From: Planktomarina sp.
GTDB taxonomy: Bacteria; Pseudomonadota; Alphaproteobacteria; Rhodobacterales; Rhodobacteraceae
DNA length: 41,363 bases
Assembly (NCBI GenBank): GCA_020630015.1
Contig: JAHDCF010000014.1
Span: 1 to 41,363, forward strand
Reading direction: 5' to 3'
Shown: piece by piece, positions 18,949 to 22,676 of the stretch
Layout: every line of letters starts with the position of its first letter
Numbering within the stretch: position 1 is the first letter of the stretch
Notes under the pieces: generated by a model
Seen by the model: only the letters and a program-made list of their open reading frames with translations
Databases searched by the model: none
Told to the model about the DNA's origin: nothing
Translations under genes and position numbers: made by a program

Positions 18949-18989
18949 TGGCATTGGGGGACCAACGATTAAAGGGTTACCCAATGCCA
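18949..18989 (+). promoter_or_regulatory. Leader hairpin that buries the AUG of the homocysteine methyltransferase
   Basis: Ten perfect Watson-Crick pairs join 18949-18958 to 18980-18989; three more pairs inside join 18961-18963 to 18975-18977, leaving an 11-nt loop. The start codon (18984-18986) is in the 3' arm, and the Shine-Dalgarno AAAGGG (18971-18976) spans the loop and inner stem. If the TSS is near 18947, the mRNA would begin with this hairpin. It suggests translational control, or an RNA switch. Confidence 0.6.
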
Positions 18990-20000
18990 AATCTTCTTTC
19001 CGAACTTCTTTCTAAACGCGACTGGCTGCTTGCGGATGGTGCCACTGGAACAAATTTGTTCAACATGGGCTTGTCTTCTGGTGATGCGCCGGAACTTTGG
19101 AATGAAGAGCAACCCGAAAAAATTAGGGCACTCTACAAAGGCAGTGTCGATGCAGGCAGTGATATTTTTCTGACTAATTCTTTTGGTGGAAACCGCGCCA
19201 GATTGAAGCTGCATGATGCTGGTCAACGCGCCCGGGAATTGTCCCGCATTTCCGCTGAACTTGGTCGCGAAGTCGCGGACGCAGCGGGACGACCAATTGT
19301 CGTTGCGGGCTCTGTAGGTCCAACCGGCGAAATTATGGAACCAATGGGCCCGCTGACCTATTCCGACGCCGTGGAAATTTTCCACGAACAGGCCGAAGGT
19401 CTAAAAGAAGGCGGCGCAGATGTGGCTTGGGTTGAAACTATTTCAGCCGCAGACGAATTCAAAGCCGCAGCCGAAGCATTTCGGTTGGCTGATATTCCTT
19501 GGTGTGGCACCATGAGCTTTGACACCGCCGGTCGAACCATGATGGGCATCACCGCACCGCAAATGGTGAAGCAGGTTGGAAAGCTGCCAAACCCACCAAT
19601 CGCCTTTGGGGCAAATTGTGGTGTGGGCGCTTCGGATTTATTGCGCACAATATTGGGTTTTTCGGCCGCAACCCCTCAAATCCCACTGATTTCAAAGGGT
19701 AATGCCGGCATTCCGAAATATGTTGATGGTCACATTCATTATGATGGGACACCTGATTTGATGGCCAGTTACGCGAAATTAGCATTCGATAGTGGCGCAC
19801 GCATCATTGGTGGTTGTTGCGGCACCACGCCAGACCATTTGCGCGCGATGCGGCAAGCATTGGAGCACCACACGCCAGGACCACGCCCCAGTTTGGATGA
19901 AATCGCTGGCCAAATTGGGCCATTTTCATCGGAAAGCGATGGAACCGATGGGGCCGGCCCAACGCGGGAAAGAAACAACCGTCGCCGTCGTCGCGCTTGA
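18984..20000 (+). CDS. Homocysteine S-methyltransferase unit of a split methionine synthase (BmtB-like)
   Basis: A 338-residue protein equivalent to the first domain of MetH and to betaine-homocysteine methyltransferase. Zinc and homocysteine ligands are visible: C212 in FGANCGVG and C278-C279 in GGCCGTTPDH. The N-terminal LLADGATGTNLFNMGL is the barrel entry of this family. Rhodobacterales commonly label it bmtB. The separate corrinoid protein 1.25 kb downstream suggests it acts with that protein in B12-dependent methionine synthesis, using methylcobalamin rather than betaine directly. I choose the ATG at 18984 with AAAGGG before it; a GTG at 18948 lacks a Shine-Dalgarno. The C-terminus ends in a basic RRRRRA tail. 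Confidence 0.85.
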   Translation: MPNLLSELLSKRDWLLADGATGTNLFNMGLSSGDAPELWNEEQPEKIRALYKGSVDAGSDIFLTNSFGGNRARLKLHDAGQRARELSRISAELGREVADAAGRPIVVAGSVGPTGEIMEPMGPLTYSDAVEIFHEQAEGLKEGGADVAWVETISAADEFKAAAEAFRLADIPWCGTMSFDTAGRTMMGITAPQMVKQVGKLPNPPIAFGANCGVGASDLLRTILGFSAATPQIPLISKGNAGIPKYVDGHIHYDGTPDLMASYAKLAFDSGARIIGGCCGTTPDHLRAMRQALEHHTPGPRPSLDEIAGQIGPFSSESDGTDGAGPTRERNNRRRRRA

Positions 20001-20005
20001 GATTT

Positions 20006-21094
20006 TCAAAAAAACGACAGCTGATCCCCAGATTGCGCAGGAACCCTGAATTTTTGCGTGCTGAGTTGAGGCATTTTTTTGAGCAGACCCAATCGTTTGC
20101 AGATTAAGTCAAATCTTTGACGAATTAGGTTTGCATATTGCCCTTGCCCGCGCAGACGGTTTCCCCAATTCGGATCATAATCTCGCCCCCCGTGAACTTC
20201 GCGAACACGGGCCATAATTTTCCGGGCACGGTCCGGAAATGCCTGTCTGACCCAATCCACAAAGATTGGTGAAACCTCCTTTGGCAAACGCAACATGACC
20301 CATGATGCACCTTTTGCGCCATTGGCGTGCCCAGCTTGCAAAATCGCTTCGACCTCATGGTCGGTTAACCCTGGGACGACTGGCGAAACCAAAACCCTTA
20401 CCGGAATACCCTTGGACGATAGACGATTGATCATTTGCAAGGTGCGTGCCGGTGCCGGAACACGCGGTTCCATTTTCCGGCCCACCACAGGATCAAGCGT
20501 TGTTAACGTAAGCCCCACCTGAACCAAGTTTTCACGCGCCAAATCCGCTAAGATATCCAAATCCCTTTCGATCAAGCTTCCTTTGGTGGTGATCATCACT
20601 GGATGCTTAAACGAACGAAGCACCTTCAAACATTCGCGCATGATGCGGTATCGCGCTTCGATGGGTTGATACGGGTCGGTGTTGGTTCCAAAAGCGATCG
20701 GTGCCACATTGTAGGTATTTTTGGACAATTCTCTTGCCAAAATTTTTGGGGCATCGGGCCGAGCGATTAAGCGTGTTTCAAAATCAAGGCCAGGCGAAAG
20801 GTTCAAAAACGCATGGCTTGGTCGTGCAAAGCAATAAACACAACCATGCTCGCACCCGCGATAGGGATTCACGGATCGATCAAACGAAAGATCTGGGGAT
20901 GAATTTCGGCTGATGATTTTTCTGGGCACTTCAACACGAACTTCCGTGCGCACCGTGGGTAAATCGTCCTCTTTCGCCCATCCATCATCGACACTAACCC
21001 TCTGAAATTGTTCAAATCTTCCAGATGCGTTCGCAGATATGCCACGACCTTTGGTTTTGCCGGTTAATCGACGTGAATCAAATGCTCGAATCAT
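20006..21094 (-). CDS. PA0069-family radical SAM protein
   Basis: A 362-residue radical SAM enzyme of the spore photoproduct lyase-like group usually annotated PA0069 family. The [4Fe-4S] motif CxxxCxxC is at C81, C85 and C88 (GCEHGCVYC). The partial TIM barrel continues with NTDPYQPIEARYR and ITTKGSLIERD. The substrate is unknown. The ATG at 21094 (MIRAFDSRRL) is preferred, as upstream in-frame sequence looks non-coding. It lies on the opposite strand between the two methionine synthase parts, and its stop is 5 nt from the stop of the methyltransferase gene. Whether it takes part in corrinoid chemistry or is a chance neighbour cannot be told. Confidence 0.88.
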   Translation of the reverse strand: MIRAFDSRRLTGKTKGRGISANASGRFEQFQRVSVDDGWAKEDDLPTVRTEVRVEVPRKIISRNSSPDLSFDRSVNPYRGCEHGCVYCFARPSHAFLNLSPGLDFETRLIARPDAPKILARELSKNTYNVAPIAFGTNTDPYQPIEARYRIMRECLKVLRSFKHPVMITTKGSLIERDLDILADLARENLVQVGLTLTTLDPVVGRKMEPRVPAPARTLQMINRLSSKGIPVRVLVSPVVPGLTDHEVEAILQAGHANGAKGASWVMLRLPKEVSPIFVDWVRQAFPDRARKIMARVREVHGGRDYDPNWGNRLRGQGQYANLIRQRFDLICKRLGLLKKMPQLSTQKFRVPAQSGDQLSFF

Positions 21095-21252
21095 AACACA
21101 AGAAAAGAACATTACATGAACATTTGCAACGTCGACCTCATTGAGTTTCGAAAAGTCGGAACCGCAAGATGGCGTGTCGCAATCGTTTAAGAAGAAATAG
21201 ACATAAAAACCGCATATCACCGCCAGACACCTTAGTAACCGGAGTGCGGCGC

Positions 21253-21960
21253 ATGTCTGACGAAGAAGACGATATCATCCTGTCTGAACTGAACGACGAA
21301 GATCTTGTCGCGCAGATGTTTGATGACCTCTACGATGGATTGAAAGAAGAAATCGAAGAAGGTGTGAACATTTTGCTTGAGCGCAAATGGGAACCCTATC
21401 GTATCCTGACCGAAGCATTGGTCGGTGGGATGACAATCGTTGGAAACGATTTCCGTGACGGTATCTTGTTTGTTCCAGAGGTTTTGCTGGCCGCCAACGC
21501 CATGAAAGGCGGCATGGCCATTTTGAAACCACTTCTGATCGAAACTGGTGCACCGCGCGTCGGCAAAATGGTGATTGGCACCGTGAAAGGCGACATTCAC
21601 GACATCGGCAAAAACCTTGTTGGCATGATGATGGAAGGCGCGGGTTTTGAAATCGTTGATCTTGGCATCAACAATTCTGTCGAAGAGTATCTGGAAGCTT
21701 TGGAAGCAGAAAAACCAGATATTCTTGGCATGTCAGCCCTTTTGACCACCACGATGCCGTACATGAAAGTTGTGATCGACACATTGGTCGAAAAACAATT
21801 GCGTGATGATTACATCGTGCTGGTTGGTGGCGCACCGTTGAACGACGAATTTGGCAAAGCAATTGGTGCCGACGCTTACTGCCGCGATGCAGCGGTTGCC
21901 GTTGAAACCGCAAAAGAATGGGTTGCGCGCAAGCATAACCAAATGGCCGCCCAAAGCTGA
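21253..21960 (+). CDS. Cobalamin-binding corrinoid protein (MetH-like B12 domain)
   Basis: A 235-residue methyl carrier. Residues about 15-100 form the helical cap domain, and about 105-225 the Rossmann-like B12 domain. The cobalt-ligand motif DxHxxG is at D114-H116-G119 (GDIHDIGKNLVG), followed by the SALLTTTMP and VGGAPL segments that line the nucleotide tail. Such proteins pass methyl groups from a donor enzyme to homocysteine. With the homocysteine unit next to it and no full-length MetH here, it is probably the second part of a split methionine synthase. The methyl-folate-binding part is not in the window. A strong terminator follows. Confidence 0.9.
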   Translation: MSDEEDDIILSELNDEDLVAQMFDDLYDGLKEEIEEGVNILLERKWEPYRILTEALVGGMTIVGNDFRDGILFVPEVLLAANAMKGGMAILKPLLIETGAPRVGKMVIGTVKGDIHDIGKNLVGMMMEGAGFEIVDLGINNSVEEYLEALEAEKPDILGMSALLTTTMPYMKVVIDTLVEKQLRDDYIVLVGGAPLNDEFGKAIGADAYCRDAAVAVETAKEWVARKHNQMAAQS

Positions 21961-21986
21961 TCCCAAACGGGTTTATGAATTTTGAC

Positions 21987-22018
21987 AAAGGCCTTACCCT
22001 TAACGGGTGGGGCCTTTT
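21987..22018 (+). terminator. Rho-independent terminator after the corrinoid gene
   Basis: The stem 21987-21999 pairs with 22005-22017 through two G-U wobbles, with a 5-nt loop, and ends in TTTT. It lies 26 nt past the corrinoid stop and 16 nt before the DUF1638 start, so DUF1638 expression should depend on read-through or its own promoter. Confidence 0.85.
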
Positions 22019-22034
22019 CATTTAGGAACACAAG

Positions 22035-22676
22035 ATGGACGTTTCAGATACCCAATTGACGGAAACTGGTTTGCACACAGATGGATCCAGCAAGGTTCTT
22101 TTGTTGGCCTGTGGGGCCATCGCCCGGGAAGTGATTGCCATTCAACAGGCAAATGGCCTGACCCATCTTGATTTACATTGCTTGCCCGCGATCTATCACA
22201 ACACACCCGATAAAATCACCCCGGCAGTGGTAGAGGCTGTGACGGCCCACCGTGATCATTACGATGAAATTTTTGTTTTATACGCGGATTGCGGCACTGG
22301 TGGTCAATTACAGGCAGCCTGTGACAAATTGGGGGTTAAAATGCTGGAAGGGCCCCACTGCTACAGCTTCTTTGAAGGCAACGGTGCGTTCGCCGCGCGC
22401 GATGAGATGACCGCATTCTACTTAACAGACTTCTTGGTGCGCCAGTTCGACGCCTTTGTATGGAAACCATTGGGTCTTGATCGCCATCCTGAACTGTTGG
22501 AAATGTATTTCGGCAATTATGATAAACTTGTCTATCAAGCCCAAACAAATGATCCCAAATTAACGGAAAAAGCCAAAGATTGCGCTGATAAAATGGGTTT
22601 GAATTTCGAGCGTCGGTTCACCGCCTACGGCGATCTGCAAAAAAGCCTTATACCCTTTGAAAACAATGGGTTATGA
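22035..22676 (+). CDS. DUF1638 family protein
   Basis: A 213-residue soluble protein of DUF1638, a family often found beside corrinoid methyltransferase genes. No catalytic role is established to my knowledge. Conserved-looking cysteines sit at C26 (LLACGAIAREV), C49 (HCLP), C86 (YADCGTGG), C96 and C109 (PHCYSFF), which could bind a metal or cluster. AGGA lies before the ATG. Its place directly after the B12 protein suggests a part in methyl transfer, corrinoid repair or donor handling; this is inference. Its stop overlaps the convergent sufE stop by 6 nt. Confidence 0.8.
   Translation: MDVSDTQLTETGLHTDGSSKVLLLACGAIAREVIAIQQANGLTHLDLHCLPAIYHNTPDKITPAVVEAVTAHRDHYDEIFVLYADCGTGGQLQAACDKLGVKMLEGPHCYSFFEGNGAFAARDEMTAFYLTDFLVRQFDAFVWKPLGLDRHPELLEMYFGNYDKLVYQAQTNDPKLTEKAKDCADKMGLNFERRFTAYGDLQKSLIPFENNGL

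Follow-up and report, generated by a model that had tools for sequence, protein, structure and literature searches.

What does a protein of the DUF1638 family do beside a split methionine synthase? The question is raised by a stretch of 41,363 nucleotides from Planktomarina sp. (GCA_020630015.1, contig JAHDCF010000014.1, positions 1 to 41,363; hereafter the window), in which the homocysteine and cobalamin units of a vitamin B12-dependent methionine synthase are separate genes, mtgE and mtgC, with a radical SAM gene between them and a DUF1638 gene behind. The locus is the mtgE-mtgC-DUF1638 block of the modular cobalamin methyltransferase system of Rhodobacteraceae; it is ordinary and already known, being a further example of the published split B12 methionine synthase. 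The new leads are a cysteine pattern common to the DUF1638 subfamilies, and relatives in which DUF1638 is fused to kinase domains. With moderate confidence, we read DUF1638 as a metal or iron-sulfur (Fe-S) partner of corrinoid reactivation by RamA/RACo-type proteins, which would dock on the corrinoid protein. Co-occurrence, gene neighbourhood, conserved residues and predicted fold are the observations from which we infer the metal, the docking and the chemistry.

A known system and its helper proteins

The split B12-dependent synthase proposed by an earlier reading of the DNA, made from the letters alone (the sequence-only reading), matches a system demonstrated genetically in Phaeobacter inhibens, where a three-part methionine synthase works with two helpers and mutants of all five genes are rescued by methionine (PMC5764234). 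Methionine there depends on the two units, on a lone pterin protein and on the helpers, a RamA-like protein and DUF1638, and the DUF1638 and RamA-like genes are cofit with the synthase genes (PMC5764234). DUF1638 is thus less of an orphan than the sequence-only reading had it when calling it unassigned: Price et al. (2018) proposed a part in B12 reactivation and gave no mechanism (PMC5764234). Another paper simply lists DUF1638 as a Sinorhizobium meliloti protein.

The P. inhibens genes PGA1_c13370, c13360, c13350 and c13340 encode the methyltransferase, radical SAM, corrinoid and DUF1638 proteins, in the same order as in the window; the pterin and RamA-like genes (c16040 and c15200) lie elsewhere, as in the Planktomarina source genome, with no PF02965 (PMC5764234). 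This likeness is one of gene content and order, and at that level no difference in kind was found. Canonical MetH shares with the source genome recognisable homocysteine, pterin, B12-cap and B12 domains. It differs in being one chain that includes PF02965 (Met_synt_B12), whereas here the units are separate genes, a RACo-type protein is present and PF02965 is not.

A reading of the locus as a methionine synthase only would be too narrow. In Ruegeria pomeroyi MtgC and MtgD, the cobalamin and folate units, are also needed for growth on glycine betaine, and so take part in its demethylation; MtgB, MtgC, MtgD, MtgE and MetF2 are SPO2160, SPO1863, SPO1884, SPO1862 and SPO2162, respectively (PMC12478193). 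MttB-family proteins (PF06253), by which the glycine betaine demethylase MtgBCD is recognised, are present in the source genome, where one or more may act on betaine; there are seven matches, one of which begins at a contig end.

DUF1638 and the RACo activator occur together

Co-occurrence was assessed in 142 genomes of the class and 349 of the phylum, by Fisher tests without correction for relatedness. DUF1638 was found in 25 genomes of the class and RACo in 30, with 24 common to both (p 1.5e-20). This replicates the observation of Price et al. that RamA and DUF1638 profiles are nearly identical over 158 alphaproteobacterial genomes (PMC5764234), and we extend it here to other classes: in the phylum sample DUF1638 is present in 54 genomes and RACo in 50, and 49 have both. 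The five phylum genomes that have DUF1638 and no RACo give only weak, partial DUF1638 matches; among three such loci fetched, two are DUF1638-HisKA-HATPase fusions, and the third ORF (open reading frame) is cut by a contig end. The MttB family is found in 30 genomes of the class, 24 of them shared with DUF1638. The only DUF1638 genome of the class that lacks it, G125 (G, L and C numbers are our handles for genomes, loci and contigs), has a corrinoid protein, a UroD-type protein, DUF1638 and another UroD-type protein in a row. As to PF02965, the activation domain of MetH, it is present in 77 class genomes, and DUF1638 does not follow it: the two coincide in 10 of the 25. DUF1638 was for this reason rejected as a marker of missing MetH.

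Outside the class, 11 genomes have strong DUF1638 matches: G218 has the Mtg arrangement, nine were classed as UroD type, and G155 was left out. All nine fetched loci (L194:5318-11472 in G148, and L196-L203) encode RACo, a corrinoid protein, a UroD-type protein, DUF1638 and a PAS/GAF or kinase-like protein, as found by tblastn, and in eight of them the sensor-like gene was also scanned with Pfam. Compared with the system to which the window belongs, UroD-type and sensor-like proteins replace MtgE, MtgD and MttB. DUF1638 therefore goes with RACo and a corrinoid protein, whichever the methyltransferase type. Its presence beside two methyltransferase types also argues against its handling a particular methyl donor, a role that the sequence-only reading had suggested and for which we find no support.

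A further group consists of seven weak matches of a kinase-fused type, five of which were fetched (G166 and G205 were left out). The three scanned with Pfam (L195:6057-9580 in G148, L208:1697-3451 and L212:5646-7418) all have DUF1638 fused to HATPase or HisKA-HATPase, behind a corrinoid and a UroD-type gene; the other two, L207 and L213, are cut by contig ends. The kinase-fused DUF1638 is possibly a sensor coupled to B12 methyltransferases. No corrinoid-UroD-histidine kinase system was found in the literature searched (one library; one review on similar terms was left aside).

Residues common to the DUF1638 subfamilies

The window protein matches Pfam PF07796 with 112 bits, for a gathering cutoff of 27. 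All five cysteines listed by the sequence-only reading (26, 49, 86, 96 and 109) are present; their number is six, with C183. Two alignments were used: one of 26 DUF1638 copies of the class, in which L011 is truncated at the N terminus, and one of the window with 79 of 80 Rhodobacterales-type loci (all except L089). No variation is seen at C86, C109 or H55 among the 26 class copies, nor at C26 in the 25 long enough to include it; C49 is found in 24 copies. The nine stand-alone copies of other classes, which belong to the UroD-type loci and whose homology to the window protein spans the full domain (hhalign E 3e-18), keep C26, C86, C109 and H55 without exception, whereas eight of them, compared also at C49, D85 and H108, have other residues there. 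In five copies of the kinase-fused type there are four invariant cysteines: counterparts of C26, C86 and C109, and one aligned beside residue 55. Profile comparisons bear these alignments out, with E values of 3e-18, 8e-8 and 1.7e-14. Of the five cysteines first listed, then, C26, C86 and C109 are conserved across subfamilies; C49 is conserved in class copies only, and C96 is variable.

A confident AlphaFold model of DUF1638 (predicted local distance difference test, pLDDT, 92.7; predicted template modelling score, pTM, 0.87) places C26, residue 55, C86 and C109 at, or at most 6 residues past, the strands 21-26, 45-50, 78-82 and 102-103, the last being two residues long. A sequence search of the PDB gave no relative (two rows, with E above 1). 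In the fold search no match stood out, and rows for ferrochelatase and Asp/Glu racemase were not taken as homology. Judged from the sequences, three cysteines and a fourth position that alternates between His and Cys look like a putative metal or Fe-S site. As the pattern is kept even in kinase-fused relatives, it turns a helper protein into a testable metal-binding hypothesis.

What DUF1638 may do

Published work on P. inhibens and R. pomeroyi is the source of the Mtg roles, which we transfer here by homology and gene order. MtgC would carry B12 and MtgD, encoded elsewhere, would exchange the methyl group with folate; MtgE would hand it from MtgC to homocysteine, and MttB-family proteins could load MtgC from betaine-type donors. 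Once oxidation has turned the cob(I)alamin of MtgC into cob(II)alamin, a RamA/RACo-type protein is thought to re-reduce it. DUF1638 may be a dedicated partner of this step: an alpha/beta protein of Rossmann-like fold, in which three cysteines and one His/Cys would bind a metal or an Fe-S cluster, and which would dock on the corrinoid protein to hold a reducible state or relay an electron. Such a role would fill a gap in the B12-reactivation parts list of betaine-using marine bacteria.

Three genomes weigh against a strict requirement for DUF1638. G109, which is 99% complete, has a cluster of mtgC, a MetF-like gene, mtgD and ramA, plus MttB, and no DUF1638; in G081 and G321 RACo is present and DUF1638 absent. 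From G109, DUF1638 is not always required.

More tentatively, a broader reading may be put forward, in which the DUF1638 domain, holding a metal or Fe-S cluster at Cys26, His55/Cys, Cys86 and Cys109, would bind to corrinoid proteins and react to the state of their cobalt. It would then have three uses: with RamA in the split synthase and betaine demethylase, with RACo in UroD-type sensor operons, and in histidine kinase fusions. If true, reactivation and sensing would reside in one domain, and the loci would represent an undescribed class of signalling coupled to B12 methyltransferases.

Among the explanations that depart from reactivation, loading of the cofactor survives best. Some proteins of cobalamin trafficking hold a corrinoid for transfer through a thiolate-cobalt bond; DUF1638 could likewise be a chaperone that binds the corrinoid through its thiolates, or through a metal, and delivers it base-off to MtgC. 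Its nearness to a corrinoid gene and the methionine-rescued phenotype fit loading as well as they fit reactivation, and loading would account for its presence with different methyltransferase types. However, the protein with which it co-occurs is the RACo activator, which loading does not need, and G109 keeps mtgC without DUF1638. We consider loading unlikely, and still a fair rival to reactivation.

Less probable again is that DUF1638 senses the state of the corrinoid protein (methylated, cob(I) or cob(II)) and passes it on as a signal, gating RamA in the group of the window and feeding a histidine kinase elsewhere. This proposal draws on the kinase fusions (3/3 scanned) and on the PAS/GAF/kinase-type gene that follows the stand-alone DUF1638 in all nine loci of other classes. 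The window copy, however, is directly flanked by MtgC and SufE, with no kinase gene beside it, and a pure sensor is not obviously consistent with mutants that methionine rescues.

The methyltransferase, corrinoid and radical SAM genes

We also asked whether the locus might serve mainly as a stand-alone betaine or dimethylsulfoniopropionate (DMSP):homocysteine methyltransferase (Bmt), the corrinoid gene being there for other reactions. In vitro, Bmt of P. inhibens needs no cofactors to form methionine with DMSP or betaine as the donor (PMC12366255), and the NCBIfam name of the window MtgE is betaine--homocysteine S-methyltransferase (BHMT; PRK07534, 590.8 bits, cutoff 338). Yet MtgE, in which Cys212, Cys278 and Cys279 are all present, is closer to MetH modules than to BHMT chains, its closest solved relative being the MetH fragment 1q7m (133 bits, versus 42-54 bits for four BHMT sequences). 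Moreover, the P. inhibens methyltransferase, MtbC, pterin, RamA-like and DUF1638 genes have common methionine-rescued phenotypes (PMC5764234), and loss of mtgC makes R. pomeroyi a methionine auxotroph (PMC12478193). This explanation is very improbable.

MtgC has the B12-binding (PF02310) and B12-binding_2 (PF02607) domains and the DxHxxG motif as DIHDIG (residues 114-119). Its closest solved relative is 1y80 (3.5e-51); it matches the NCBIfam MtgC models, yet under their cutoffs.

That the radical SAM gene, present in 63/80 loci and lying between mtgE and mtgC in 51/61 loci with both, is an extra working part, for example in B12 reactivation, is scarcely credible and was rejected: the gene belongs to the PA0069 family (NF033668, 491.8 bits, cutoff 360; CxxxCxxC at Cys123), its P. 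inhibens counterpart is without fitness effect and dispensable for methionine (PMC5764234), and none was seen in 10/61 loci with mtgE and mtgC in the stretch examined. It is a genomic neighbour, not a demonstrated part.

Gene layout and conservation of the locus

The four ORFs of the sequence-only reading, with their named residues, were confirmed by ORF calls and by a Pfam scan of 8 window proteins (Table 1). The start codons of mtgE, mtgC and DUF1638 are the ATGs at 18984, 21253 and 22035.

Table 1. Genes of the split methionine synthase locus in the window
Gene or product	Coordinates	Strand	Family evidence
mtgE / bmt, homocysteine S-methyltransferase unit, 338 amino acids	18984..20000	+	PF02574 1.3e-62
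PA0069-family radical SAM gene	20006..21220	-	Pfam Radical_SAM 8.5e-20; NF033668
mtgC, cobalamin-binding (corrinoid) protein, 235 amino acids	21253..21960	+	PF02310 1.1e-25, PF02607 8.7e-17
DUF1638 (PF07796) protein, 213 amino acids	22035..22676	+	PF07796 3.3e-32

The flanks look ordinary: one holds the gene for the ATPase inhibitor zeta and a gene that by eye we take for purC, and the other holds SufE and RNase D. Rfam gave no riboswitch match at the locus and two tRNAs elsewhere in the window, a permissive scan adding one chance-level match; promoter and terminator predictions were no better than in shuffled sequence.

Conservation of the four-gene order across Rhodobacterales, a check that the sequence-only reading had called for, was examined at the best 80 of 584 confirmed DUF1638 relatives, whose titles are mostly Rhodobacteraceae or relatives; contig ends truncate some of these loci, which makes the presences minimum counts and may inflate the absences. 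A same-strand mtgC match lies upstream of DUF1638 in 77/80, mtgE also lies upstream in 61/80, and the radical SAM gene, on the minus strand, is the one counted above; the arrangement is therefore no product of chance. The spacing between mtgC and DUF1638 is at most 500 bases in 52 loci and at most 1000 in 68; the larger gaps of the other 9 indicate that other genes can sit between. One relative, R. pomeroyi strain SZCCDBG043 (L066), resembles the window in having mtgC near DUF1638 (88% and 67% identity to the window, respectively), and differs from it by a gap of about 1.3 kb between the two and by the absence of an mtgE match in the 10 kb upstream. Of 25 loci fetched from the class sample, 21 have mtgC immediately ahead of DUF1638; another has a UroD-type gene between the two, and three are without a corrinoid match in the stretch examined.

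The rest of the system in the source genome

The folate and reactivation units were absent among the 8 window proteins scanned with Pfam, and both are on other contigs of the source genome (2.88 Mb, 70 contigs, 96.6% complete). Two PF00809 matches were found. One (G000:C70) is the lone pterin unit that the sequence-only reading suggested looking for, a methyltetrahydrofolate:corrinoid methyltransferase (PRK07535, 394.6 bits, cutoff 259); the other, on C46, is presumably FolP. There is one RACo/RamA-type activator, with Fer2, linker, middle and C-terminal domains. A full-length one-chain MetH, which would have spoken against the split synthase, was not found in the genome search, nor was any PF02965 match. 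PF02574 has two matches, MtgE of the window and a 322-residue protein on C31, and the search for MetE gave a MetE-like protein with a weak match on C2. Since the genome also encodes this second homocysteine methyltransferase and a MetE-like protein, losing mtgE might leave the cell prototrophic under some conditions.

A weak MetF-like ORF stands ahead of mtgD (L124:7319-9348), and the canonical methylenetetrahydrofolate reductase match is on C54; the ORF, placed beside mtgD, is probably the counterpart of MetF2 of R. pomeroyi (PMC12478193). Contig C20, which carries the RamA-type gene, also encodes CbiD, a tetrapyrrole methylase and a CobB/CobQ-type protein (L126:375-3636), at a distance of about 10 kb from it. 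The 322-residue homocysteine S-methyltransferase-family protein (L133:8918-9886) is near two ORFs of more than 800 residues, whose starts, by eye, we take to resemble FAD-binding oxidoreductases.

A last observation concerns PF13769, 'Virulence_fact', of which no mention was found in the literature searched (one library). In the source genome an ORF of this family stands immediately ahead of the MetF-like gene and mtgD (L124:9345-9635), and in 16/25 class loci (L137-L158) one of about 100 amino acids follows DUF1638 at a distance of no more than about 105 bases. In G109, a natural case of DUF1638 absence, the cluster at L164:1955-7085 reads mtgC, PF13769, MetF-like, mtgD and ramA. The name of the family may mislead, and the ORF may be part of the system.

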